Origin: Acidobacteriota bacterium
Lineage (GTDB): Bacteria; Acidobacteriota; JAAYUB01
Length of the DNA: 64,000 nucleotides
Direction of reading: 5' to 3'
Assembly (NCBI GenBank): GCA_012517875.1
Contig: JAAYUB010000134.1
Span: 1-64,000 of the forward strand
In this document: positions 32,458 through 59,230 of the stretch, piece after piece
Layout of the letters: the number at the start of each line of letters is the position of its first letter
Position numbering within the stretch: position 1 is the first letter of the stretch
Program-made: the position numbers and the translations under genes
Notes under the pieces: model-generated
Databases searched by the model: none
Seen by the model: only the letters and a program-made list of their open reading frames with translations
What the model was told of the DNA's origin: nothing

Positions 32458-34875
32458 TCAGCGCTCGGCGGCGGGTTCCGCGAGGCGGGCGAGCTCGGGG
32501 TGGACCAGGCGGTAGAGCCGCATATTGGCCATCACGTGGTTCACGTAGCCGCGGGTCTGGTGGAAGTGGATCTCCGGCGGCAGGTACAGGTCGGCCGGCT
32601 GGCCGGCCAGGCGCGTCCAGTACGCCGCCTGGCCGAGGCCGGCGTTGTAAGCGGCGGCCGCGGCGGCGGGGGACTGGAGGCGGTCCAGCAGCTGGCGCAG
32701 GTAGCGGACGCCGAGCCGGATGTTCAGCCCCGGCTGGTACAGGGCGGCACCGGCGTCGGGCAGCTCGATGCCGCTCTGAGCCGCCACCGTACGGGCCGTG
32801 TCGGGCATGAGCTGCATGAGCCCGCGGGCGGAGACCGGAGAGTGGGCGCGGGGGTTGAACCGGCTCTCCTGGTGGATGATGCTGTAGATGAGGCTGGGGT
32901 CGACACCCGCCTCGCGGTTGGCGGCGCGGACGTCCTCCTGGTAGGGCGCCGGGTAGCTGAGGCGGAGCAGCTCCGGGTTGATCATCGCCAGCGGCGTGCC
33001 CTCGGGATAGCGCTCCAGAGCCAGGTAGGACCAGCGGTACGCCTGGTGTGGGGCGCCGGCCCGCTCAAACAGGCGGGCCAGCGTCACAGCGCGCCGGATG
33101 GCCGGGTCGTGTTCGGAGTCGCCGGTATGCCGCGCCACGAGCACCAGCGGCGTGCGGCTGTACTCGAGGGCGGCCGGCTCTGCCAGCCCCAGCCGTTGGA
33201 AGGTCCGCGCGCGGAACAGCCGTCCTGCCGGCGTGTCGACGGCCGAAGGGGCGGGCGGGGTCATGGCATCGGTCGGAAGCGACGGGATGTCCGCCAGCGC
33301 AGTGATCACCGCCCGGTACCGAGGCAGCTGCTGAAGACCCCGGTGCCACGCGGCGGCGTCGCCGGTCAAGAAATACAGCCGGCCGTATTCCTCATAGGCG
33401 GCCGTCTGGTCGCCTTGCGCGGCGAGGTCGGCCGCCCGGGTGCGGGCCGCGGCGGCGAGCGCCGTCCGCAGGTCCGGCCGGCTGGCCAGGACGGCGTCCG
33501 CCCGGTCCATGGACAGGAACGCGTACTGGCTGTGGCGGTGGTTCAGTTCGGCGGTCCACGTCTCCACCGCCCGCTGCGGATCGCCTGCGCCCTCCAGGGC
33601 GAGGCCGAGAAAGAACCGGGCCTCGAGCCGGTCCGGCAGATTGCCGGAGGCGGGGGATGGGAGTTGCGGCAGCAGCGTCTCGAGGATGGGGACGGCCTGT
33701 TTGGGCATCCCTAGTCGCAGGTGGAACAGCGCTTCCAGATATTCGAAGCGCCGGCGCTCCCGCCCGTTGAATTCGGCGGCAGCCCGCTGCAGCCAGCCGA
33801 GCGGCGCCGTGCTCGGGCCCGTGAGGCGGGTGACGTTGTAGAGGGCGGCATAGACATCCGACCGCGTGGCCTCATCGTCGGCCAGCTCCAGCCCGTCGGT
33901 GTACACCGGCAGGGCCTCGGCCTCCCGGCCGGCCAGCAGCAGCGTCCGGCCCAGGGCAAGCCGGCTCTGGACCTGGAGGTCCTTGCCGCCGGAGCGTCCC
34001 GCTTCATCGTAGAATTGCGCGGCGGCGGCGTAATCGCCCTGGAGAAAGCGACAGCGGCCCACCCAGAAGGTGTAGAGCGGCCGCTTGGCCGACTGGGGGA
34101 AGCGTTGGCGGAGCGCCTCGGCCAGCGGGAGCGCCCGTCGTGCTTCGCGGTTCTGCACCAGCACCGCCGTCAGCCGGGCCAGGCGGTCCTCCGACTGGCG
34201 GACCCGGTTCATGAGCGGTTCGCTGTCGAGCAGACCCAGCGCCGCGGCCGCCTCGGTGCGCGCCCGGCCGGACGCCAGCGCCGGCCAGAGCAGCCCCCAG
34301 GCGGCGTCCCACTGCTTGAGCCGGGCGTGGATGCCGGCCGCCGCCAGCCGAGCCTCGTCGCGGCGGGACTTGTACTTGTGGGCGCAGTTCAGGAAGGTCT
34401 GCAGCGCCAGGCTGAGCTTGCCGCTGTCGCGGTAACTTGCCGCCAGCAGAAAGTGGGCGTCCGGGTTGTAGGGGCTCTTCGGTTGGCTCTTGACCAGCGC
34501 GTACCAGCACTTGCGGGCCGCGACGGGGTTCCCCGCCGCGTCGTGCAGACGAGCCTGCTCCGCGAGCATGTAGTCGGCGAAGAGAGAGTCGCGGGGGATC
34601 CAGGCGGCGTAGAGAGCGATTGCCTCCGCGCGTTGGCCGGACGATTCGTGCAGCCAGGCCTGCAGCAGGTAGAGGCGGTCGCGCCGGTACGCAGTCGGAT
34701 CGGTCTGCTGCAGGGTGGCCACCTCGGCCAGCGCCTCCGGCCAGCGTCCGGCCTGGACATGCGGCTCCACTTCGGGAATCCCGATGGACGCGCGCAGCGG
34801 CAACGCACCCGCACCCAAAGGCAGGGCGAGGAACAACAGGCAATGTATCCACGAGCGGACGGCCGGTGCTTTCAT
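32458..34875 (-). CDS. TPR-repeat soluble lytic transglycosylase (Slt type)
   Basis: 805 residues. A signal peptide (about 5-25) is followed by a long superhelical region of tetratricopeptide-like helical pairs (about 30-620) as in Slt70, then an SLT domain (about 655-795). The catalytic glutamate is E670 in IIHQESRFNP; the downstream GLMQLMPDTA and AYNAG(L)G motifs are intact. It cleaves the MurNAc-GlcNAc bond of peptidoglycan to form 1,6-anhydro ends. The ATG at 34875 starts the signal peptide; a long in-frame extension upstream is within repeat DNA and is not used. No good ribosome site is visible. Confidence 0.9.
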   Translation of the reverse strand: MKAPAVRSWIHCLLFLALPLGAGALPLRASIGIPEVEPHVQAGRWPEALAEVATLQQTDPTAYRRDRLYLLQAWLHESSGQRAEAIALYAAWIPRDSLFADYMLAEQARLHDAAGNPVAARKCWYALVKSQPKSPYNPDAHFLLAASYRDSGKLSLALQTFLNCAHKYKSRRDEARLAAAGIHARLKQWDAAWGLLWPALASGRARTEAAAALGLLDSEPLMNRVRQSEDRLARLTAVLVQNREARRALPLAEALRQRFPQSAKRPLYTFWVGRCRFLQGDYAAAAQFYDEAGRSGGKDLQVQSRLALGRTLLLAGREAEALPVYTDGLELADDEATRSDVYAALYNVTRLTGPSTAPLGWLQRAAAEFNGRERRRFEYLEALFHLRLGMPKQAVPILETLLPQLPSPASGNLPDRLEARFFLGLALEGAGDPQRAVETWTAELNHRHSQYAFLSMDRADAVLASRPDLRTALAAAARTRAADLAAQGDQTAAYEEYGRLYFLTGDAAAWHRGLQQLPRYRAVITALADIPSLPTDAMTPPAPSAVDTPAGRLFRARTFQRLGLAEPAALEYSRTPLVLVARHTGDSEHDPAIRRAVTLARLFERAGAPHQAYRWSYLALERYPEGTPLAMINPELLRLSYPAPYQEDVRAANREAGVDPSLIYSIIHQESRFNPRAHSPVSARGLMQLMPDTARTVAAQSGIELPDAGAALYQPGLNIRLGVRYLRQLLDRLQSPAAAAAAYNAGLGQAAYWTRLAGQPADLYLPPEIHFHQTRGYVNHVMANMRLYRLVHPELARLAEPAAER

Positions 34876-35000
34876 GATTGATTGATCAACCGATCCGGGC
34901 CTGTAACCAGCCGCCCGGATCAACCGCTCATTGTAATGGAAGCGGCGGTTTCGCCCAACCCTTTTTGCACGGACTTCAACCACCTCCAGTCGTGCGACCG
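34876..35000. other. Gene-free spacer upstream of the transglycosylase gene
   Basis: No open frame of coding character. The ATTGATTGATCAACC segment just before the gene is AT-rich and could hold its promoter, but no confident -35/-10 pair was found. It continues into the octamer array. Confidence 0.5.
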
Positions 35001-35072
35001 GTGGAATCGATGGACAGTTGAATCGGTGAATGGATGGCTGGGTGAATAGGTGAACGGGTGGATTGGTGATGG
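35001..35072. repeat. Octamer-phased degenerate tandem repeat
   Basis: Nine contiguous 8-base units in one register: GTGGAATC, GATGGACA, GTTGAATC, GGTGAATG, GATGGCTG, GGTGAATA, GGTGAACG, GGTGGATT, GGTGATGG. The consensus is close to GGTGAATC. The same unit recurs as four perfect-phase copies at 43151-43182. Confidence 0.85.
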
Positions 35073-35095
35073 GCACGTAGATCCGGTTTCTGTAA

Positions 35096-35178
35096 TCCAG
35101 GATCCAGGACTCAGAACCCGAGACCCAGGTCCGAATTCCGATTTCCGATGTTCGATAGCCGAAGTCCGATGTCCGGTT
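35096..35178. repeat. Heptamer-phased degenerate tandem repeat
   Basis: About twelve contiguous 7-base units: TCCAGGA twice, CTCAGAA, CCCGAGA, CCCAGGT, then a run of CCGAxxT units (CCGAATT, CCGATTT, CCGATGT, TCGATAG, CCGAAGT, CCGATGT). It abuts the stop codon of the unknown secreted gene on the minus strand. Confidence 0.85.
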
Positions 35179-36310
35179 AAGGGGCGTTCCCCAGCGTCGA
35201 CCCTTCTCGTCGGTGATCACGCGAGAAGGCGATCCACGCTTTTTTCCCATCCAGCTGATAATGAACTTTCAACGTTTCCTGGCCTCTCTCGGGCTTGAAG
35301 GTGTGCTCGATGACGGCATCGACCCATATTCCCGGTTCGCGGTAACGGAAACAGAAGAACTGGCCGTAATAATTGCCCGAAGCATTGCGCTGGTCGGCGA
35401 ATTTCAGAAAGACCATCCCCTTCTGGTACCCCACGTAATAATCCGGAACGTGATCGTCATATTTTCGGGCGACGTAATAGCCCCCTTCCCTGGAGATGAC
35501 GGTCAGGCCCTCCCGCCAGCCGCCGGTCAGGTCATTTGGATTGGTCGGCGGATTCGGCGGCGGCGGATCGACGCGCTGGTTTGCGGCCAAAGTTCCCTTT
35601 GTCGCCGGCGAATCGAAGCCCGGTTCCAGGTTCAGGTTGGCCAGCCGGACGTCGTTTTCCAGGGTCCTGATCATTGCGTTGAAGTCCCCAGTGGTTTTCA
35701 GGTTTGGAACATTCAGATTGTTCGCCTGATCCTCGGTGAGAAAGGAACAGCCGAGCGTGTTGCGCACCGTGAGTCCCATCGTGAGGGCCTGATTGATTCC
35801 GCTTCTTGCCATTTCGAGGCGAAAGCTGTTCCCTACCCGGGTGGCGGCAACGGCCTGGCCGCTGTGGAACCCGAGATCGGCGACGTAGGTGTCGCAGGTG
35901 GCGAACGATTGCAAGCCCTGATCGGACCTGAAGATGGTCGACATCGCCGTCTTTAAATTGGAGTGGCATCCCTCCAGATACGCCATCTTCTGCCGGTTGT
36001 TCATGCGTTCCGTCGCCTGGGGGAAGCGCTGCAGCAACTCGGTGATCCGGCGGATCTGGCCGGAATCGAAGGGTGGATCGAAGTACCGGTCGGCGAGCTG
36101 GTTCAGCATGGTGATGGCCGTGTTGATGTAGCCGTTGATGGTGTTGGAATTTTCGGAGGTGATTCCCTGGTATTCGACGATCAGTGCGGTCATGCCGATG
36201 TTGCCCGCCGCGTTGAACACCAGGCGCTGGCGCTCGTTGGCTTTCAGTTGCTGGCCGCCCAGCCAGAGCAGCAGACAGGGCACGACGAACAACACTTTCG
36301 TGATTCTCAT
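35177..36310 (-). CDS. Unidentified secreted protein flanked by phased repeats
   Basis: 377 residues with a signal peptide (MRITKVLFVVPCLLLWLGGQQLKA). I recognise no family. The first 220 residues are helical with a few Cys (C134, C158 and C213, roughly), then a Pro/Asn-rich linker around 265-275 (PPPPNPPTNPNDL) leads to a beta-rich C-terminal domain (about 275-365) with Trp, Tyr and Lys clusters. GGAGGTGACAGG precedes the ATG. It stands alone between a TPR-transglycosylase and MFS genes, with repeat arrays directly at its 3' side and just beyond its 5' side. Base composition looks less GC-rich than its neighbours. Confidence 0.75.
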   Translation of the reverse strand: MRITKVLFVVPCLLLWLGGQQLKANERQRLVFNAAGNIGMTALIVEYQGITSENSNTINGYINTAITMLNQLADRYFDPPFDSGQIRRITELLQRFPQATERMNNRQKMAYLEGCHSNLKTAMSTIFRSDQGLQSFATCDTYVADLGFHSGQAVAATRVGNSFRLEMARSGINQALTMGLTVRNTLGCSFLTEDQANNLNVPNLKTTGDFNAMIRTLENDVRLANLNLEPGFDSPATKGTLAANQRVDPPPPNPPTNPNDLTGGWREGLTVISREGGYYVARKYDDHVPDYYVGYQKGMVFLKFADQRNASGNYYGQFFCFRYREPGIWVDAVIEHTFKPERGQETLKVHYQLDGKKAWIAFSRDHRREGSTLGNAP

Positions 36311-36422
36311 CCTGTCACCTCCGCTGGTTGGCGATTCTTCTTCTTACATTTCAAAGTATGGTAAAACCCGGCCGATGTCAATCAGCGGTTGATCGGCCAT
36401 TTGGATACGAGTCCGGCGATGC

Positions 36423-36527
36423 TGGAATCCGGGACCCAGGTCCGATCTCAGAAATCCGATTTCCGAAGTCCGAAGTCCGAGTTCCGATGCCGGGAACGAG
36501 CCTCCGGCCTCGAGCCTCTAGCCTCGA
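36423..36527. repeat. Heptamer-phased degenerate tandem repeat
   Basis: Fifteen contiguous 7-base units in one register, including CGGGACC, CAGGTCC, GATCTCA, GAAATCC, GATTTCC, GAAGTCC twice, GAGTTCC and GATGCCG, ending with four GCCTCxA-type units (GCCTCCG, GCCTCGA, GCCTCTA, GCCTCGA). The CCCAGG/TCCGA phrase also occurs in the array at 35.1 kb. Lies in the leader region of the MFS gene; 36528-36613 shows nothing else. Confidence 0.85.
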
Positions 36528-36613
36528 TTCTGATGTGCCTTGACTTTGCCGCGGCCGGACATTATCTTCGCGAGGATGATCTTGCAATCCGTGTTACGGA
36601 GCCCCCGTCCCGC

Positions 36614-37858
36614 ATGAACAAGCCCTCGCCCAACCTGAAGCGGCTGCCGGCGGCCGTGGTGGCACTGGGCGTGGTGAGCTTCTGCAACGACCTGTCCAGC
36701 GAGATGATCTACCCGCTGCTGCCGCTGTTTCTCGCCACGACCATGGGAGCGGGGGCGTGGGTGATCGGGCTCATCGAGGGGGTGGCCGAGTCCACCGCCG
36801 CGGCGCTGAAGCTGGTCGCCGGCCTCCTGGCCGACCGGGTGCGGCGGCGTAAGCCCATGCTGCTGGCCGGCTACGGGATCTCCGCGGCGGCCCGGCCCCT
36901 CATCGGCCTGGCCGGCGCCTGGCCGTTTGTTCTGGCCATGCGCTTCGCCGACCGGGTGGGCAAGGGCGTCCGCACCTCGCCCCGCGACGCGCTCATCGCC
37001 GACGTGACCGCGCCGGAAATCCGCGGTGCTGCCTTCGGCTTCCACCGCGCCATGGACCACGCCGGCGCAGTGGTGGGGCCGCTCGCGGCCGCGGCGCTGC
37101 TGGTGGGCGCCGGACTGGAGCTGGGCCAGGTGTTCCTGCTCGCGGCGATCCCCGGCGTGGCGGTGCTTGTCGTCCTCGTCGCGGGGGTTCGGGAGCCGGC
37201 GCGCGCCGCGCCCGCCGCGCCGCCCGCATGGGACGTGCGCCGCGACTGGCGTGGCCTCGGGCGCCCGTTCCACCGGTTCCTGCTGGCCATGCTGGTGTTC
37301 ACGCTGGGCAACTCGGCCGACGCATTCCTGCTGCTGCGACTGGCGCAGTCGGGCGTGCCCGAGGCGTGGGTGGCGGTGCTCTGGTCGCTCCACCATGTGG
37401 TGAAGATGGCCGCCACGTATGTCGGCGGGCGCCTGTCCGACCGGCTGGGCCGGCGGCGCATGGTGCTGGCCGGCTGGGCGGTCTACGCGGCGGTCTACCT
37501 GGTCTTCGCCGCCGGTCCGTCCATGCCCGGGCTCGTCGCCGCGTTCATGGTGTACGGAATCTACTTCGGCCTCACCGAGCCGGTGGAGAAGGCGTGGGTC
37601 GCCGACCTGGCCCCGACGGCGCTGCGCGGCGCGGCATTCGGGTCGTACCACGCGGTGGTGGGGCTGGGCGCGCTGCCCGCCAGCCTCGTCTTTGGCCTGG
37701 TCTGGCAGGCCTGGGGCGCTCCGGCCGCATTCGGTTTGGGTGCCGCCCTGGCCGCCGCGGCGGCCGCCCTGCTCGTGCGTGTGAGCGCCGAGGAGGCAAT
37801 CGCGGCCGATGGGCTGAACCAGGCGCCGAAATCCACGTACAATCAACCCAAGGAGTAG
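36614..37858 (+). CDS. MFS transporter (drug-resistance-type)
   Basis: 414 residues with about 12 membrane helices and the major facilitator loop 2-3 motif GLLADRVRRRKPMLLAGYG (near 70-90), plus a second copy GRLSDRLGRRRMVLAG in the second half. Residues SFCNDLSSEMIYPLLPLF at the N-terminus resemble the YfcJ/fosmidomycin-resistance-like subgroup. The ATG at 36614 begins the first helix; longer frames enter repeat DNA. Its stop overlaps the ribosome site of the next MFS gene, so the two are probably co-transcribed. Substrate unknown. Confidence 0.85.
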   Translation: MNKPSPNLKRLPAAVVALGVVSFCNDLSSEMIYPLLPLFLATTMGAGAWVIGLIEGVAESTAAALKLVAGLLADRVRRRKPMLLAGYGISAAARPLIGLAGAWPFVLAMRFADRVGKGVRTSPRDALIADVTAPEIRGAAFGFHRAMDHAGAVVGPLAAAALLVGAGLELGQVFLLAAIPGVAVLVVLVAGVREPARAAPAAPPAWDVRRDWRGLGRPFHRFLLAMLVFTLGNSADAFLLLRLAQSGVPEAWVAVLWSLHHVVKMAATYVGGRLSDRLGRRRMVLAGWAVYAAVYLVFAAGPSMPGLVAAFMVYGIYFGLTEPVEKAWVADLAPTALRGAAFGSYHAVVGLGALPASLVFGLVWQAWGAPAAFGLGAALAAAAAALLVRVSAEEAIAADGLNQAPKSTYNQPKE

Positions 37859-37862
37859 CGGT

Positions 37863-39302
37863 ATGACGGAAACCCCCGGGACCACCGAGAAGAAGAGCCC
37901 CTGGCGCGAGATCGTGGAACCGTTCGTAAACCTGGTGCAGGCGCCGATGGCCCTCTGGGCGGCCAATCTGAGCTACTGCCTCGAGGGGCTGGCCTACTTC
38001 GGAACACTGGCCCTGCTGGCGATCTACTACAACGACTTCCTCGGCTTCGACGACCACGCCGCCGACTGGATGGTGGGTGTGCTCACAGGCGGCATCACCC
38101 TGGGCATGCTGTTCCTCGGCAGCATCCCCGACCGTTGGGGCGTCCGCCGGGCGCTGGTGGCGGCGATGGCGTTCGTCCTGGTGGGCCGGGCGCTGCTCGC
38201 GGCCGGTCCCACGTTCCTGCCGTGGTTCGGCGGCGCGACATCGCCGCTGTTCCTGGTGTCGCTGGCGGGGATCCTGTGCGTAGTGGTGGGCTGGGGGATG
38301 TACCAGCCGGCGATTTTCTCCGCCGTCAAGCATTTCACGGACGAGAAGACCGCGGCGATGGGCTTCGCCATGCTGTACGCGGTGAACAACCTGGGCGGCT
38401 TCCTCCCCGGGCTGCTGTCGCCCCGGGTGCGCGCCGCCACTAACGCGTTCTTCGAGGCCCACGCGCCCACCGCCGGCCCCGGACCCCGCGGCGAGATCCA
38501 TTACGGCATCCTCGGGGTGTACTGGGTATATGTGGCCCTGACCGTGGTGGGCCTGCTGGTGGTGGCGCTCCTGCTGAACCGGCGCGCGGTGGAGCGGGCC
38601 CGCCGGATCCTGGCCGGCGACTCGGCCGCCGGCGCGCCCCCCGCGGCGGAGGGGACCGGCCGGCCCCGGCGCACGCTGGGCGAGTATCTGCGCCAACATC
38701 CGCTGCGGGACGGCAAGTTCACCTTTTTTGTTTTCGTCCTGATCCCGGTGCAGACGCTGTTCGCCCACAACTGGCTGACCCTGCCCCAGTACGTGGACCG
38801 CTGCTTCGGCCAGGGCGTCCGGGACAACATGGAGTTCTTCGTCAACTTCAGCCCGCTGCTCATCTTTGTGCTGACGCCGCTGGTGGCCGCGCTCACCACG
38901 AAGGTGCCGGTGTACCGCATGATGATGCTGGGCACGCTGGTGATGGCCGCCCCCACGTTCCTGCTGTCGCTCGGCACCAACGTCTATCTGCTGGTCGCGT
39001 ACATCGTGATCATGTCGGTGGGCGAGGCCATGTGGTCGCCCCGCTTTCTGCAGTTCATCACCCAGATCGCACCCGCGGGGCGCACCGGCGAATACGTGGG
39101 CGTGGGGCAGTTCCCCTGGTTCCTGACCAAGATCCTCACCAGCCTGTACGCCGGCTTCTTCCTGGCCCGCTTCGTGCCCATCGATGGCTTGCGCCATCCC
39201 CAGACCTTGTGGCTGGTGTACGGCGGCGTCGCCATGATCACGCCGGTGGCGCTGTTCCTGGCCCGCCGGCGGGTCAGCGGCAAGCTGGAGGAGAAGGGCT
39301 GA
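37863..39302 (+). CDS. MFS/POT-like transporter
   Basis: 479 residues with about 12-14 membrane helices. The N-terminal SYCLEGLAYFGTLALLAIYY resembles the ExxER-like helix of the proton-dependent oligopeptide family, with E-G-L-A-Y-F-G in place of ERFSYYG, and the loop motif GSIPDRWGVRRALV follows. A charged loop at about 235-275 divides the halves. AAGGAG lies 8 bases before the ATG. Coupling to peptide uptake is plausible because a prolyl oligopeptidase follows, but this is inference. Confidence 0.8.
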   Translation: MTETPGTTEKKSPWREIVEPFVNLVQAPMALWAANLSYCLEGLAYFGTLALLAIYYNDFLGFDDHAADWMVGVLTGGITLGMLFLGSIPDRWGVRRALVAAMAFVLVGRALLAAGPTFLPWFGGATSPLFLVSLAGILCVVVGWGMYQPAIFSAVKHFTDEKTAAMGFAMLYAVNNLGGFLPGLLSPRVRAATNAFFEAHAPTAGPGPRGEIHYGILGVYWVYVALTVVGLLVVALLLNRRAVERARRILAGDSAAGAPPAAEGTGRPRRTLGEYLRQHPLRDGKFTFFVFVLIPVQTLFAHNWLTLPQYVDRCFGQGVRDNMEFFVNFSPLLIFVLTPLVAALTTKVPVYRMMMLGTLVMAAPTFLLSLGTNVYLLVAYIVIMSVGEAMWSPRFLQFITQIAPAGRTGEYVGVGQFPWFLTKILTSLYAGFFLARFVPIDGLRHPQTLWLVYGGVAMITPVALFLARRRVSGKLEEKG

Positions 39303-39419
39303 CGCGACGGGCGCGGCGGCGGTGCAGACACCCGGCCGCCGGCGCACCTTGAGATACGTGGGACAATATCCGCGAGGCCTGGTCGGGCCCGCGAACCTTA
39401 TTCCGACTGAGGAGGCGAC

Positions 39420-41555
39420 ATGCGCAACGCGACCATCGGCATCCTGCTGACGGCGATCCTGACGGCCGCCGGCATCCTGGGCGTGCCGGCGGCGGATCCG
39501 CCGGCGATCCAGTATCCCAAGACGGCCACGGTGGACCAGACGGACGACTACCACGGCACGAAGGTGGCCGACCCGTACCGCTGGCTCGAAGACGACAAGG
39601 CCCCGGCCGTGGCCGCTTGGGTGCAGGAGCAGAACGCCCTCACCTTCGGCTACCTGGACAAGATCCCTTACCGCGACGCCATCCGCAAGCGACTGGAGAC
39701 GCTGATGAACTATCCCCGCTACAGCGCGCCGTTCCGGGCGGGCGATTACTACTTCTTCAGCAAGAACGACGGCCTCCAGAACCAGAGCGTGACCTATTAC
39801 CAGAAGGGCCTGACCGGCGAGCCCCGGGTCTTCCTCGACCCCAATGCGCTCTCGAAGGACGGCACCACGCGGGCCGGCCTGGCCGGTTTCTCCGAGGACG
39901 ACCGCTACGTCGTGGTCCGCTACTCGGCGGCCGGCTCCGACTGGGGCGAGTTGAAGGTCATGGGCGTGGCCAGCCGCCGCGAACTGTCGGACCACCTGAA
40001 GTGGGTCAAGTTTTCCGGCGCGGCCTGGCGGGGCAACGGCTTCTACTACAGCCGCTATGACGCTCCCAAGTCGGGCGAGGAGCTCACCGCCCGCAACGAG
40101 AACCAGAAGATTTACTACCACAAGCTGGGCGACCCCCAGGACAAGGACCGCCTCGTCTTCGAGGACCCCGAGCATCCGCTGCGCTACCACGGCGCCAGCG
40201 TGACCGAGGACGGGCGTTACCTGATCATCTCCAGCTCCGAGGGGACCCACGGCAACGAGGTGCGCGTCCGCGACCTGAAGCGCAAGGGCAGCCAGTTCCA
40301 GGTGCTCTGCCCGGGCTTCCGGTACAACTACTCGATCATCGACAACGTGGGCGATCGCTTCCTCGTCCACACGGACCACGGGGCGCCCAACTATCGGGTG
40401 GTGCTGATCGACCCGCGCCGGCCCGAACCGGAGAACTGGCAGACCGTCGTCGCCGAGAAGAAGGACGTGCTGCGCGGCGCCTCGACCGCCGGCGGCAAGC
40501 TGTTCTGCACCTACCTCGTGGACGTGTCCACCCGCGTCTACCAGCACGCCCTCAACGGCAGGCTGGAAAAAGAGATCGAACTCCCCGGCCTGGGATCGGC
40601 GGGCGGATTCTACGGCAAGAAGAAGGACACGACCCTGTTCTATACCTTCACCAACTTCACCTATCCACCGGTGATCTTCAAGTATGACCTGAAGACGGGC
40701 CGGAGCGAGCTGTTCCGCCGCACCGAGCTCCCCTTCGACCCGGCCGGCTTCGAGGCGAAGCAGGTGTTCTACCCCTCGAAGGACGGCACGAAGATCCCCA
40801 TGTTCATCGTGCACAGGAAGGGGCTGGCGCTCACCGGCGACAACCCCACCTACTTGTACGGCTACGGTGGCTTCAACGCCAGCATGACACCGTCGTTCAG
40901 CGCCACGCTGATGCTCTGGCTGGAAAGCGGCGGCGTCTACGCCATGGCCAACCTGCGGGGCGGCGGCGAGTACGGCGAGAGCTGGCACCAGGCCGGCATG
41001 CGCGAAAAGAAGCAGAACGTGTTCGACGACTTCATCGCCGCGGCCGAGTACCTGATCCGCGAAAAGTACACCTCGTCGGAGCGGCTGGCCATCGCCGGCG
41101 GCTCCAACGGCGGGCTGCTCGTGGGCGCCTGCATGACCCAGCGCCCCGAGCTGTACAAAGTCGCCCTGCCGGCGGTGGGCGTGATGGACATGCTCCGCTT
41201 CCACAAGTTCACGGTGGGGTGGGGCTGGACCGTGGAGTATGGCACCAGCGACGACCCCGACCAGTTCAACTACCTGAAGGCGTACTCGCCGCTCCACAAC
41301 CTGAAGCCGGGCGTGCGCTATCCGGCCACCCTGGTCACCACCGCCGATCACGACGACCGCGTGGTGCCGGCCCACTCGTTCAAGTTCATCGCCACGCTGC
41401 AGGCGTGCCAGGCCGGCCCGGACCCGGTGCTCATCCGCATCGAGACGCGCTCCGGCCACGGCGCCTCTTCGCTCACCAAGGGCCTCGACCTTCAGGCGGA
41501 CACCTGGGCGTTCACGTTCTGGAACATGGGGGTGAAGCCGAAGGTCGGGGAATAG
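39420..41555 (+). CDS. Prolyl oligopeptidase (S9A), with signal peptide
   Basis: 711 residues. A signal peptide (about 1-24) is followed by the POP N-terminal seven-bladed propeller (about 30-420) with the usual [27 protein letters not shown] opening, and an alpha/beta hydrolase domain. The triad is S562 (GGSNGG), an Asp in ADHDDRV around 643-646, and H680 in SGHGA. The oxyanion-side [13 protein letters not shown] motif is intact. It hydrolyses Pro-containing peptides on the C-side of proline, here in the periplasm if the signal is used. GAGGAGG precedes the ATG. Preceding MFS/POT-like genes suggest a peptide scavenging module. Confidence 0.93.
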
Positions 41556-41583
41556 GTGGCGCAGGCGTCCCGCCTGCGGAAGT
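41556..41583. repeat. REP-like hairpin after the prolyl oligopeptidase gene
   Basis: GCAGGCG-TCC-CGCCTGC forms a 7-bp stem with a 3-base loop at 41561-41577, immediately after the stop. Its stem/loop geometry is the same as in the hairpin block at 43.3-44.0 kb; a related broken copy (GCCGGCCTCCCGCCTGC) lies near 41831. Confidence 0.6.
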
Positions 41584-41660
41584 GAACGGTGAACAGTGAA
41601 CAGTAAACAGTGAGGAGATAGGAGGTGGCAGGTAGGAGTTAGGAGATGGGAGTTGGGATG
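41584..41660. repeat. Heptamer-phased degenerate tandem repeat
   Basis: Eleven contiguous 7-base units: GAACGGT, GAACAGT twice, AAACAGT, GAGGAGA, then TAGGAGG, TGGCAGG, TAGGAGT, TAGGAGA, TGGGAGT, TGGGATG. The GAACAGT...GAGGxGA phrase matches the repeats at 1.39 kb and 43.1 kb. Confidence 0.85.
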
Positions 41661-41959
41661 CTCCCGATTTCCAGACAGTCGAGATGATTGGCCCGCCGCC
41701 GGCGGGACGTGCTGTCGGTTGTATTAGAATGAATCGGTGAATCGGGCAGAGGGCTCCGCCGGGACGCTCTGCCCGATATTTTTCTCGCGCCTGCAAACCT
41801 GGACCCTGCAAATCTCGAATAATCGATAGCGCCGGCCTCCCGCCTGCGAGACGGGCGTTCAATACCATTCGCTCGAGCGGACGGCCCTGACGGACGGCCG
41901 CCCAGCGCACACGTTGGAGCAGCGGTTCGAATCCAGCAGAGCGACAGGAGGGTGACAGC
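41661..41959. other. Gene-free spacer between prolyl oligopeptidase and PQQ-propeller genes
   Basis: Holds a terminator (41741-41784), a GC-hairpin remnant near 41831 and nothing with coding character. A GGTTCGAATCC string near 41930 was examined and does not form a tRNA T-arm. Confidence 0.5.
41741..41784 (+). terminator. Rho-independent-like terminator
   Basis: An 11-bp perfect stem (ATCGGGCAGAG/CTCTGCCCGAT) with a 15-base loop is followed by ATTTTTC. It lies 186 bases past the prolyl oligopeptidase stop. Confidence 0.75.
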
Positions 41960-43075
41960 ATGAAGCTCGGTACCCGGTACATACCAGTCATCGTGGCTTT
42001 CTTCCTCGGAATTGGAGGATCTGCGGCTGTAGCCCAGATGGTGACTTACAACGGCGGCGTCACGCATACGGGCTACTACGACGAGCCGCCGCTGCATGAA
42101 CTGAAAGGGTTGAAATGGAAATACGACACCGGCGCCGACCTGGTCACGTCGCCGCTGCTGGCCTATGGCGGCTGTCTGTTTTTTGGGGATGGAGCCGGGT
42201 GGTTTCACGCCGTCGATATTCAATCAGGAAAAGAGAGGTGGCGATTCAATGCCGGCCAGACTGTCGCCGGCTGCCCCACCGTCTTCAACGACAAGGCCTA
42301 CTGGGGCTGCGGAGCGGGCATTCTCTACGTGCTGGATCCGCGTTCGGGCAAGGAACTCCGCCGATTTCAGACTGATGGTCGCCTCGAGAACCGAGATGGG
42401 GCGATTTGTTTCCCGCCGCTGGTTCATGACGGGATGGTTTTCTTTACCAGTCATGACCACAGTCTCTATGCGTTGGATGTCGACTCCCTCGAGATCAAGT
42501 TCAAGCTCCAGACCGAGAACTCCATGTGCTGCAGCCCTTCCCGGTGCGGCAATGTCATCTATCTGGCCAACGCGAGCGGATACGTCTCTGCGATTGACGT
42601 GAGCGCGCGTGCCGTGATCTGGCGATTCAAAGCCGCGAAGAATGTCTATCATGCGCCGGCCATAGCCGACGGGATTGCGTATTTCTGCAGCCAGGACCAC
42701 TTCGCCTACGCGGTGGACGCAACCACCGGCAAGGAGATATGGAGATTTGAGGCCGACGGCGTGATCAGCAAGGAGCCCGCGATTCACAACGGATGTGTGT
42801 ATTTCACCACCCTCTTCAGCCACCTCTACGCGCTGGACGCAAAGAGCGGCCGATTGATCTGGGACGTCCGGAAGGAGGGTAAAGCGTATTCCAAAGCGAT
42901 CGTCGCCGGCGATGTGGTCTACTGGGGCGGTGGCGATCATCATCTCTATGCGCTCAGCGCTTCGAGCGGCAAGATGCTGTGGCGGTTTGAGGCTGATGCG
43001 GCGGTCAATTACCCGAGTTGTCATGGCGGCATGGTGTTTTTTGGAAGCGGTGGCAGCGTCTATGCCCTGGAATAA
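41960..43075 (+). CDS. Secreted PQQ-like beta-propeller protein
   Basis: 371 residues with a signal peptide (about 1-26). The rest consists of about seven repeats of the PQQ enzyme repeat type, with motifs such as YALDxxSGKELW / AVDATTGKEIWRFEADG / YALSASSGKMLWRFEAD, giving a complete propeller. No quinoprotein catalytic residues are evident, so it may be a binding or scaffold protein, similar to BamB-like or extracellular propellers. AGGAGGGTGA precedes the ATG. Like the gene at 35.2-36.3 kb it is flanked on both sides by phased repeat arrays, and its codon use looks less GC-rich than the neighbouring prolyl oligopeptidase. Confidence 0.85.
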   Translation: MKLGTRYIPVIVAFFLGIGGSAAVAQMVTYNGGVTHTGYYDEPPLHELKGLKWKYDTGADLVTSPLLAYGGCLFFGDGAGWFHAVDIQSGKERWRFNAGQTVAGCPTVFNDKAYWGCGAGILYVLDPRSGKELRRFQTDGRLENRDGAICFPPLVHDGMVFFTSHDHSLYALDVDSLEIKFKLQTENSMCCSPSRCGNVIYLANASGYVSAIDVSARAVIWRFKAAKNVYHAPAIADGIAYFCSQDHFAYAVDATTGKEIWRFEADGVISKEPAIHNGCVYFTTLFSHLYALDAKSGRLIWDVRKEGKAYSKAIVAGDVVYWGGGDHHLYALSASSGKMLWRFEADAAVNYPSCHGGMVFFGSGGSVYALE

Positions 43076-43105
43076 TGGTCGTGACGGCGAGCCCCTGGCT
43101 ACCAA

Positions 43106-43224
43106 GAACAGTGAACGGTGAACAGTGAACGGTGAACAGTGAGGAAAATTGGTGAATCGGTGAGTCGGTGAATCGGTGAATCGGGAGACGTCAAACGTCA
43201 GACTTAAGACTTAAGACTTATGAC
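43106..43224. repeat. Compound heptamer/octamer-phased repeat array
   Basis: Five alternating heptamers (GAACAGT/GAACGGT) at 43106-43140 are followed by GAGGAAA, four octamers GGTGAATC/GGTGAGTC at 43151-43182, and five heptamers GTCAAAC, GTCAGAC, TTAAGAC twice and TTATGAC at 43190-43224. Three unit families, each found alone elsewhere in the window, are joined here. Confidence 0.88.
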
Positions 43225-44140
43225 ACTGATTTCCGCGTCGGGCGGCGCCGGCGGCCCGGCTGCGCAGTAACTGCGGCGTGTAGCCCGGGCCGAAAGGCCC
43301 GGGTGGGGCGGATCCCGTACGGCGTGGGCGAGCCGCGCCAGCGGCGACAGGAATGGATCGGGATCAGTGCCCGATGATTCACGCGTTGCTAATATGTTCG
43401 AACGGATTTGAAAGGGTCCAACCCATTCACCCGTCTCCGTCGCTCCCGCGGAGCGCTGATTGCTCCACCCCTCCGCCGACCCGGACCTGTGGGTCCGGGC
43501 TGCATGCCGCTGCCGGTTGCGACGCAACCGCCCTCCCCGTGTTTTCTCGCGCCCCTGCAGGGCGCGGGCCGGCTCGCGATGCGTCGCCCCCCCTGGGCCT
43601 GCGGCCCAGGCTATTGACCGCCGTCCCTCCGGGCCGGATGCGTGCGTTCCATGACGAAATGATCGGCAGACGTCCTGCCCCTCACGATCCGGCGAGGGGC
43701 CGGACGCCGAGGACCGGCGAGGCCGGTCCAATGTGGGTAGCCCCGAGTGAAACCTGGGGTGGGCTGGCGGCCGGCCGATTGAGGGCGATGACCCGCGAGG
43801 CGGGTCGAATGTGGATCCGGTCCGTCGGTGACGGGGGTACGACGGGCGCGGATGTCCGTCGCATGTTCGACCCGCGTTGCGGGTCGGACCCTTCCCCCAC
43901 CGACCCGGCACACCCCGGGCTCGCGCCCGGGGCTACCCATATCCGACCCGCCCTGCGGGTCGCTCCGGCTCACGCCGGAGCGGAACAGACCCCAGCTTTA
44001 ACCTGGCGATACATTCCAAATAACACTGCCACTGCCACCCCCATTCTGATCTCCCGCTATCCATGTTATCGCCGCCATGTTTTGGATGCTGCAGAGCGGG
44101 TTGACACGGATGGGTTCGGATGGTAAAGGACGATAACGAT
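43225..44140. repeat. Block of REP-like hairpins with conserved flanks
   Basis: No gene with coding character. At least ten hairpins with 6-8 bp stems and 3-5 base loops occur between 43281 and 43981. Type A (flank GTAGCCC, end GGGTGGG) is at 43281-43307 and 43738-43765 on the plus strand and 43911-43938 on the minus strand. Type B (GACCCGC-nnn-GCGGGTC-GAATGTGG) is at 43711-43736, 43790-43814 (plus) and 43861-43890, 43938-43963 (minus). Others are at 43441-43455, 43480-43499, 43514-43530, 43548-43566, 43592-43610 and 43962-43981. Compensatory base changes keep the stems paired. 43990-44140 is less structured. Confidence 0.8.
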
Positions 44141-44278
44141 ATGGCCATATCTGATTTCCGGAGCGCGATGCAATCACGTCTTGTGTTCTGTGCGGACGGG
44201 AAAGATCACACCAGCCGTGAGGCGTCCGATACGCTCGCTCCTGAAGGCAAACTGGCTGAGGACGAGCTAATGACGTGA
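44141..44278 (+). CDS. Possible 45-residue small protein
   Basis: ATG at 44141 preceded by AAAGGA ten bases upstream; the frame runs 45 codons to a TGA 12 bases before the next gene. The product is soluble and acidic at its C-terminus (KLAEDELMT). No family is recognised and codon bias is weak, so this may be chance. Confidence 0.25.
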   Translation: MAISDFRSAMQSRLVFCADGKDHTSREASDTLAPEGKLAEDELMT

Positions 44279-44290
44279 CGGAGACATGAC

Positions 44291-44821
44291 ATGCGCAAGG
44301 AGTACGGAAAAGCGCTCCGGCAGTATTTCTCAAAGCAGATGAAGGAGCGACTGCCGGAGTTCAAAGAGGAAAAGGTGCAGTCCGTGTACCTGTGGCCCGG
44401 GCAGCGGGCGTTCAGCCGGCCGCTCTCCGGCTCGCTGAAGTGCTGGATCGTGCTCAGCCCCAGTCCCAAGGACTTCGACGAGTTCACCGTCCTGATCGGA
44501 TGGTCGACGCTGGGGCGGTACCCGGAGCTCTCGGTGATCCCTTCTCCCCAATCGCCGTCGCCGGACCGGGTGGAATTCAGCCAGCCGGAGTACCTCACGC
44601 GACTCCCGCAGCTCTGGACCCGGCAGGACGAATGGTGGGTCATCCAGGAGTTCGAGCCGGCGCTCACCGTGGAGCAGATGACGGCCCGGATGGCGCCCAT
44701 CCCGGCGCCGGCGGCCGAGGAGAAAGTGATCCCCCGCGTGCAGGAGTCCATCGACAAGGTGATTGAATACGGCCTCCCCTATCTGTCCGAGTTCGTGCGG
44801 TCGAGGGGCGAGGGCGGCTGA
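44291..44821 (+). CDS. Unidentified 176-residue protein
   Basis: Soluble protein, no signal peptide. The N-terminus is basic and helical (MRKEYGKALRQYFSKQMKERLPEFKEEK), the middle is beta-rich with aromatic residues (VYLWPGQRAFSRPLSGSLKCWIVLSPSP), and the C-terminus is helical (VIPRVQESIDKVIEYGLPYLSEF). The general outline resembles small immunity- or DUF4304-like proteins, but I cannot assign a family. It is followed by other short unknown genes on the same strand, after a hairpin-rich stretch. Confidence 0.7.
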   Translation: MRKEYGKALRQYFSKQMKERLPEFKEEKVQSVYLWPGQRAFSRPLSGSLKCWIVLSPSPKDFDEFTVLIGWSTLGRYPELSVIPSPQSPSPDRVEFSQPEYLTRLPQLWTRQDEWWVIQEFEPALTVEQMTARMAPIPAPAAEEKVIPRVQESIDKVIEYGLPYLSEFVRSRGEGG

Positions 44822-44985
44822 GCGGGCGTTCCCGGCGGACGCGCGCCGCGCACCCCGCTGCTGAGGCGAAGTGCTGACGTCACACATATACACGACTGAC
44901 AATGTGCGGTACCGAATGTCCATTCGGCTACGAGCCGGTGTCGCCGTTGCGAGCGGTTGTTAGCCGGCTAGTTCAGAAGGTCACC

Positions 44986-45149
44986 ATGCCAAGTTTCCGG
45001 TTGAACGCGTCTCGGTTCATTGTCGGCATGATGCTGATCGTTTTTGCATTCTGATTTTTCTATTCGTCAAGGGGGACTACTCGACCCCCGGGGCGATTGG
45101 GATCGGCATCATCGGCCTGGTAAGCATTGCGATCTCGAGAAGAAAGTAA
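44986..45149 (+). pseudogene. Frameshifted small two-helix membrane protein
   Basis: From the ATG at 44986 (AAGG upstream) frame 1 encodes a basic start and a hydrophobic helix (RFIVGMMLIVFAF) and stops at 45052. The -1 frame, entered at the T5 run 45041-45045, continues as IFLFVKGDYSTPGAIGIGI and a second hydrophobic helix to RRK and a TAA at 45147. Restoring one T gives an uninterrupted 54-residue two-helix protein. It is either a real inactivation or a homopolymer sequencing error. Confidence 0.65.
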
Positions 45150-59012: not shown

Positions 59013-59230
59013 GCCGGCGGCGCCGGGACCATCGATGGACATTGTGACCGTCCAATCGGAACATCCTTGGGTGCGATCCGGCACGCTGGTCGGATCGCCA
59101 CGAGCGTAGCCAGGCGCAGCCGGGCAGCGCCTGGACATGCCCGGGTGTCTCGGGAATGCACCTCCCGAGGATGGGGCGCAGAGACGTGCGGCGTCTGCGA
59201 CCACCCGTTCGCCGCGCCCCGCGGCCGGAT

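Follow-up and report, generated by a model that had tools for sequence, protein, structure and literature searches.

Short tandem repeats joined into an ordered intergenic composite in an uncultured Aminicenantes genus

The compound locus and the other arrays of the window

Behind a gene for a PQQ-like beta-propeller protein, three arrays of short tandem repeats lie in one spacer of the window, the 64,000-nucleotide stretch of DNA analysed here. The window belongs to a genome of 4.02 Mb in 182 contigs (G000), which was compared with two congeners (G001 and G002) and a sister genus (G003). As judged from the nearest relatives of its S9 peptidase, which are two Acidobacteriota MAGs (L059 and L060) at 95% protein identity followed by Candidatus Aminicenantes at 65–70%, the host is a Candidatus Aminicenantes (Acidobacteriota) MAG and not a cyanobacterium. 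The features of the window that concern us are the following, with modules lettered by repeat family:

1389–1411, +, remnant of module A immediately past the stop codon of an M23 peptidase gene (compared with G001)
34999–35073, +, degenerate module B (TRF)
35095–35175, +, modules E (CCCAGGT) and C (TCCGAWN) (TRF, run calls)
36430–36528, +, modules E and C, linker GGGAACGAGCCT and module D (CGAGCCT) (TRF, aligned copies)
39420–41555, +, prolyl oligopeptidase (S9) gene, the syntenic anchor (Pfam PF02897, PF00326)
41579–41660, +, modules A (GAACRGT) then F (GGAGATA/GGAGTTG), immediately past the S9 gene (TRF, sequence, run calls)
41728–41745, +, short B module ahead of a terminator-like hairpin (TRF and pattern search)
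41742–41784, +, terminator-like inverted repeat followed by a T run (TCGGGCAGAGGGCTCCGCCGGGACGCTCTGCCCGATATTTTT), recognised by eye
41960–43075, +, PQQ-like beta-propeller protein gene, upstream of the compound array (ORF; Pfam PF13570, PF13360)
43106–43142, + (sense), module A, (GAACRGT)5.3, beginning about 30–31 bp past the stop codon of the upstream gene (TRF)
43143–43150, +, A-B linker GGAAAATT (GGAAAAT, about 43143–43149), read from the sequence
43151–43184, +, module B, (GGTGAATC)4, with one unit being GGTGAGTC (TRF)
43185–43228, +, third period-7 array, AGACGTC/AGACTTA (period-7 run call at about 43186–43228)

An earlier note on this DNA had placed three phased arrays at 43106–43224, and TRF recovers all three, with the units GAACRGT, GGTGAATC and AGACTTA, in this one spacer. 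The first is returned as GAACAGTGAACGGT repeated 2.6 times with a 100% match (43106–43142), corresponding to about 5.3 heptamers, the second as AATCGGTG repeated 4.8 times with a 90% match (43147–43184) and the third as AGACTTA repeated 3.6 times with a 94% match (43200–43224). Up to the end of the octamers the spacer reads ...ACCAA GAACAGT GAACGGT GAACAGT GAACGGT GAACAGT GAGGAAAATT GGTGAATC GGTGAGTC GGTGAATC GGTGAATC GG, and after this GG it continues as GAGACGTC AAACGTC AGACTTA AGACTTA AGACTTA TGACACTG. Phase is constant within each of the three arrays, as had been described, but they do not lie strictly end to end, the short linker GGAAAAT separating the first from the second; likewise, the four octamer units at 43151–43184 are present, but one of them is GGTGAGTC and not GGTGAATC. 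Comparison with Rfam gave zero matches at the gathering score across positions 34000–45000 of the window, and the array itself is predicted to be unstructured (z +1.25 and +1.16).

Within the window, AGACTTAAGACTTA (up to three mismatches) has 6 matches with 0.28 expected, and GGTGAATCGGTGAATC has 8 with 0.81 expected. The claim that each family also occurs alone elsewhere holds for GAACRGT (an array at 41584–41611 and a degenerate version at 1393–1406) and for GGTGAATC (35017–35056 and 41728–41743), but not for TTAAGAC, which has a single match, with three mismatches, in the rest of the window. The arrays at 35.1 and 36.4 kb had to be reassigned to other families, namely TCCGAWN, CGAGCCT and CCCAGGT, and the spacers in question read B-E-C (35.0–35.2 kb) and E-C-D (36.4–36.5 kb). 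Given the terminator-like repeat at 41742–41784, the A, F and B arrays behind the S9 gene would lie between its stop codon and a putative terminator; an element of the same make, with its T run, is also present in L059.

Genome-wide excess and module order

Genome-wide statistics were taken from 763 kb of G000, 88.8% of which is coding according to our own simple gene caller (no standard annotation was used), and from 360 kb of G001, a sample partly picked for array-carrying contigs. The intergenic DNA of the 763 kb contains 70 period-7 and 26 period-8 runs, compared with 3.0 and 2.2 in shuffled sequence and 3 and 3 in coding DNA, a strong excess of the very periodicity on which the earlier note had staked its reading. 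Periods of 10, 11, 17 and 20 are not in excess in the same intergenic DNA, and Markov shuffles of 455 kb of G000 gave zero comparable period-7 or period-8 runs.

Searched as GAACRGTGAACRGT, family A has 33, 94 and 54 matches in G000, G001 and G002, with 0 for the reversed pattern, and is absent from the sister genus G003. Family B, searched as GGTGAATCGGTGAATC with at most one mismatch, has 144 matches in G000 and 0 in the reversed control. Genome-wide recurrence thus applies to GAACRGT and GGTGAATC, but TTAAGAC is all but confined to one place and does not rise above its reversed control (7 matches versus 5, most of the 7 being the 43106–43228 locus itself). De novo searches added the 7-bp families TCCGAWN, CGAGCCT, CCCAGRW, GGAGATA and ATCAACC and the 8-bp family GAACCTGC, and a 6-bp family, GATTAC, was recognised from aligned copies.

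On one strand these modules follow the consensus order A (GAACRGT), F (GGAGATA), B (GGTGAATS), E (CCCAGRW), C (TCCGAWN), linker TTACGGGAACGAGCCTCGA, D (CGAGCCT), Z (GATTAC hexamers), G (ATCAACC) and H (GAACCTGC), about nine unit families of 6, 7 and 8 bp joined by conserved linkers. This order is followed in 37 spacers and violated in 2 (p = 2.8e-9); counted pairwise, 349 module pairs are concordant and 53 are not, although these pairs are not independent of each other. Linker and module edges are kept across 30 loci, with conserved joints such as ...TCCGATGTCCGCGTTACGGGAACGAGCCTCGAGCCTCGATTACGATTACGA..., and the linker TTACGGGAACGAGCCTCGA (up to three mismatches) is present in 67, 113 and 81 copies in G000, G001 and G002, with 0 in the reversed control and 0 in G003–G005. 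At some loci part of the composite is inverted, and at some, whole C-D-Z blocks are tandemly duplicated. Judged by these sequences, the composite, which takes up many of the spacers, is restricted to one genus of uncultured Aminicenantes; in Acidobacteriota outside the genus the units are not above control.

The 43106–43228 locus reads as a partial copy of this ordered composite, representing its left part. The F module (GGAGATA) seen between A and B in other copies is missing, and the AGACGTC/AGACTTA array, which is specific to this locus, has probably diverged from the GGGAGACG stretch found behind B elsewhere. Instead of three joined unit families, as first described, we are thus dealing with an ordered composite of about nine modules, and the third of the original three, TTAAGAC, is not a recurrent family.

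The arrays are unevenly spread, with 1 of 79 spacers carrying one in contig C17 of G000 (200 kb) and 7 of 40 in the contig of the window. A 200-bp GGTGAATS array of about 25 units, alternating between GGTGAATC and GGTGAATG, reaches the contig end at 13134–13335 of L053 (G000:C86), which indicates that MAG contigs break in arrays. Other recurrent intergenic phrases in G000 spacers (e.g. C82:1179 and C86:929) are TTTTTCATTTGTCATTGAGCATT and CCTTTGTGTCCTCCGTGACTTTGTGGTGAA. With 182 contigs, some of them ending in arrays (e.g. C86), an artefact of MAG assembly or binning might be suspected, but two congeners, assembled independently, have the same families, linkers and sites, and we give this explanation next to no credence.

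A cross-phylum “dictionary” of the same units was considered and is not claimed, since viral contigs exceed the reversed control only about twofold (three units of A, 14 versus 7 contigs; three units of C, 39 versus 18). Exact GAACAGT x3 and TCCGAWR x3 arrays do occur in viral contigs (L215–L228, L229–L267), often between a stop codon and the next start.

Shared sites and polarity at gene ends

Over about 130 kb of synteny with G001, nearly every spacer with an array in one species has one in the other as well, but the two differ in module content, in length and even in orientation at such shared sites. At 1389 the window has a remnant, where G001 has a long GAACAGT array and an inverted ACTGTTT array that face each other; at 36.4 kb the window has E-C-D, and G001 has inverted E', E and G'. 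Arrays accumulated 35 indels per 1,010 aligned bases, other intergenic DNA 179 per 10,964 and coding DNA 51 per 119,469, an indel density about twice that of other spacer DNA and about 80 times that of coding DNA. Because indel sizes in multiples of 7 or 8 are not in clear excess (7 of 19 in arrays versus 17 of 62 elsewhere), these data lend weak support to slippage by whole units. The composite at C69:11060 has the same module plan in both species, suggesting that copies are old and evolve in place.

Larger rearrangements are found at some of these sites. At 34950–35198 the window has only B-E-C arrays where both congeners hold an extra gene of about 3 kb (G001:C157 91451–94940, ORF 91565–94600). 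The hypervariable region at 41558–44077, with arrays at its edges, spans 2.5 kb here and 10.9 kb in G001 (C157 101440–112302), and another, on contig C134 (75914–82933), measures 7 kb versus 0.3 kb. Arrays may mark rearrangement breakpoints, although several other large synteny breaks are free of them.

Arrays stand at the 3' end of the S9 gene in the window, in L059 and, with different units, in the other Aminicenantes L063, L064 and L065, whereas M23 orthologues in other Aminicenantes have no array 3' of the gene. Class-wide conservation of array position, which holds for S9 and fails for M23, is therefore not established. Heptamer arrays of other Aminicenantes genomes (L063 5852–5927 and 8131–8175, L064 8130–8178, L065 3174–3210) consist of unrelated units (CTGGAAC, CGCGTGA, CGGCATA), and several lie immediately behind stop codons.

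With respect to gene orientation, array spacers are enriched between convergent genes (11 of 41 versus 36 of 248) and depleted between divergent ones (5 of 41 versus 75 of 248). For 43 of 120 arrays the nearest boundary is a gene end within 40 bp, with 23.7 expected from random placement in the same spacers, whereas 11 lie within 40 bp of a gene start, with 12.8 expected; in tandem spacers the arrays show no strand preference. This distribution is hard to reconcile with upstream sites regulating translation or transcription, an idea that would otherwise suggest itself because Beggiatoaceae TAACTGA repeats are of the same kind and have been proposed to be binding sites ahead of start codons (PMC4679880), and we regard such a role as very unlikely.

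The modules differ in the side of the gene end on which they fall. Of the A, F and B arrays, 15 of 26, 11 of 21 and 19 of 42 lie in sense within 60 bp of a gene end, right behind the stops, whereas Z is antisense to the adjoining gene end and E and C make no contact with gene ends in sense. Plus-strand stop codons are found in the left-hand modules A, F and B, minus-strand stops in the right-hand modules Z and G, and none in E, C and D. In many cases the gene ends inside the array, at the first stop triplet (TGA, TAG or TAA) that this contains, e.g. ...CTGGTGAATCGGTGAATC. Arrays within 30 bp of gene ends contain 0.60 stops per unit in sense and 0.06 in antisense (Fisher p = 1.5e-9 against distant arrays), and all three frames are closed in 27 of 44 on the sense strand versus 1 of 44 on the antisense strand. 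The sense strand of these gene-end arrays is purine-rich in 37 of 44 cases and pyrimidine-rich in 1; distant arrays have no purine bias (47 versus 69 of 178). Where the stop codon lies clearly ahead of the array (6–30 bp), polarity is weaker but present (8 sense versus 0 antisense).

Such polarity might reflect a functional 3'-end element. Either the arrays, transcribed between stop codon and terminator as unstructured, purine-rich RNA, would act on mRNA ends, or their C-rich antisense strand would work as an antisense terminator of the Rho type and protect genes against convergent transcription. The sense placement of A, F and B, the purine-rich sense strand, the enrichment between convergent genes and the predicted lack of structure of the window array all fit this proposal, as do the S9 stop codons followed by heptamer arrays of other units in L063, L064 and L065 and the same polarity reported for Xanthomonas GGGAATC repeats (PMC4692102). 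Yet most gene ends are without an array, as the single occupied spacer of C17 illustrates, orthologous ends differ in module content between species, and the M23 orthologues do without a 3' array, so that on balance we think a functional 3'-end element rather unlikely. Hairpin or terminator formation as the general function was rejected on the positive z-score of the window array and on the comparison of array spacers with others, which are no less structured (median z −0.29 versus −1.01); strong hairpins are confined to some loci, e.g. G001 C157:57918 (z −13.3).

Origin of the composite and relation to known repeats

What probably best explains the module order, linkers, copy number, restriction to the genus, changed contents at shared sites, divergent depletion and 3'-end polarity is a dispersed tandem-repeat composite driven by recombination and slippage and filtered at gene ends, likely without sequence-specific function. 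Rather than encoding regulation, the elements would most likely be spacer DNA that is neutral or weakly selfish. Slipped-strand mispairing would add and remove units, and ectopic recombination or conversion, together with local block duplication, would long ago have spread linked modules between spacers; present-day turnover would require no dedicated transposase. Where an array abuts coding sequence, only some orientations would survive: as 7- and 8-bp units cycle through all frames, a unit with a stop in sense should end any frame within about three units, while a stop-free array beside coding sequence would give the protein a long tail. Such a reading-frame filter would place A, F and B in sense and Z in antisense at gene ends and the stop-free E, C and D in the centre; H is an exception to the scheme, being free of stops on both strands. 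Nor does the filter fully explain the purine bias, because this persists in stop-poor gene-end arrays (10 versus 1). Together with the polarity at 6–30 bp, it suggests that transcript selection or a transcription-linked mutational bias may add to the filter.

Spread by a MITE- or REP/BIME-like family mobilised in trans, for instance by RAYT (Y1) transposases, would account for dispersed copies with conserved linkers and for the inverted A/F modules at both ends (A/F and F'/A') of several loci, and RAYT genes are indeed present in all three congeners, some beside array modules. A PF01797 search of five genomes nevertheless led us to reject RAYT mobilisation as the main cause, since the three RAYT loci near arrays have classical GC-rich REP hairpins of their own on either side, which do not resemble the arrays, and since arrays are absent from the neighbourhood of most RAYT genes. 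The hairpins flanking RAYT genes are thus distinct from the dispersed element, and true REPs exist separately in G000; the window has at 59106–59138 a REP-like hairpin, GTAGCCAGGCGCAGCCGGGCAGCGCCTGG, of the same type as those around RAYT genes elsewhere in G000. Furthermore, sites are common to both species, array spacers are not more structured than others, and neither a target-site duplication nor an empty site showing how copies spread was found, also at the loci with A/F and F'/A' ends. There was no sign of current transposition, and no enzyme could be tied to the arrays. Taken together, we hold a mobile element to be improbable.

The conserved module order could also mean function. In a gene-end device, selection would put purine-rich arrays with sense stops at 3' ends and stop-free arrays in the middle, replacing unit sequences and keeping position and period (7 or 8). 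If true, this would imply a period-specific, sequence-independent mechanism of synthesis or recognition, and we see little chance of it.

Why the long simple repeats of bacteria are most often heptamers is a long-standing question. For this the genus provides hundreds of copies of about nine ordered families with units of 6, 7 and 8 bp, together with congeners whose spacers can be compared. It also yields two simple rules against which any heptamer-rich genome can be examined, namely that arrays at gene ends have sense stops and are rich in purines and that units in the middle are free of stops. Should these hold elsewhere, a passive reading-frame filter would become separable from a real 3'-end function.

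Among known systems, the STRRs or long simple sequence repeats of heterocystous cyanobacteria (Calothrix, Nostoc) share with the arrays described here the intergenic location, the degenerate, phase-constant heptamers, the many copies, the several families per genome and the variable length. The likeness drawn by the earlier note is therefore one of kind, extending to genome-wide 7- and 8-mers that evolve in length, while the sequences are different, as it had itself pointed out. By intergenic excess, dispersed copies and variation between relatives, the arrays belong to the intergenic heptameric and octameric simple sequence repeats (STRR/LSSR) in the broad sense; in the narrow, cyanobacterial sense they do not, their host being an Aminicenantes and their units differing from the published ones, although a Brasilonema plasmid does carry a GAACAGT array. 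A fixed module order with conserved linkers and the mixing of 6-, 7- and 8-bp units were not found described for STRRs in the accessible literature.

The GGGAATC repeats of Xanthomonas and GGGGAYT repeats of Nostoc (Rehm et al, 2015; PMC4692102) are likewise intergenic heptamers that occur between the same gene pairs in related species, vary in length and sequence and are few between divergent genes. Those of Xanthomonas lie behind stops on the coding strand, at stable sites and with variable length (PMC4692102), and A, F and B share this location on the coding strand 0–50 bp past the stop. The difference is that one unit capable of forming a G-quadruplex stands there and about nine non-G4 units in set order here: on inspection of the consensus units, GAACRGT, GGTGAATC, TCCGAWN and CGAGCCT contain no GGG and hence not the four runs of at least three G, the variant GGTGAATG making GGG across unit joints. 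The TAACTGA repeats of Beggiatoaceae, cyanobacteria and Bacteroidetes (MacGregor, 2015; PMC4679880) are also genome-wide intergenic direct heptamer repeats, sometimes mixed with other heptamers and with 7-nt indels between related strains, but in Beggiatoaceae they lie ahead of start codons, whereas the arrays of this genus prefer gene 3' ends and avoid divergent spacers. REP/BIME and MITE families resemble the composite as dispersed, non-coding intergenic repeats with many copies and some inverted arrangements; they are built from hairpins or from terminal inverted repeats round a fixed core, in contrast to tandem 6–8-mers with occasional hairpins. Heptamer repeats are thus already known as a kind from cyanobacteria, Beggiatoaceae and Xanthomonas, though little understood, and the Aminicenantes composite is more elaborate: as far as the literature was searched, its fixed order of about nine families, its mixed 6-, 7- and 8-bp units, its conserved linkers and its module-wise rule of stop codons and purines are new.
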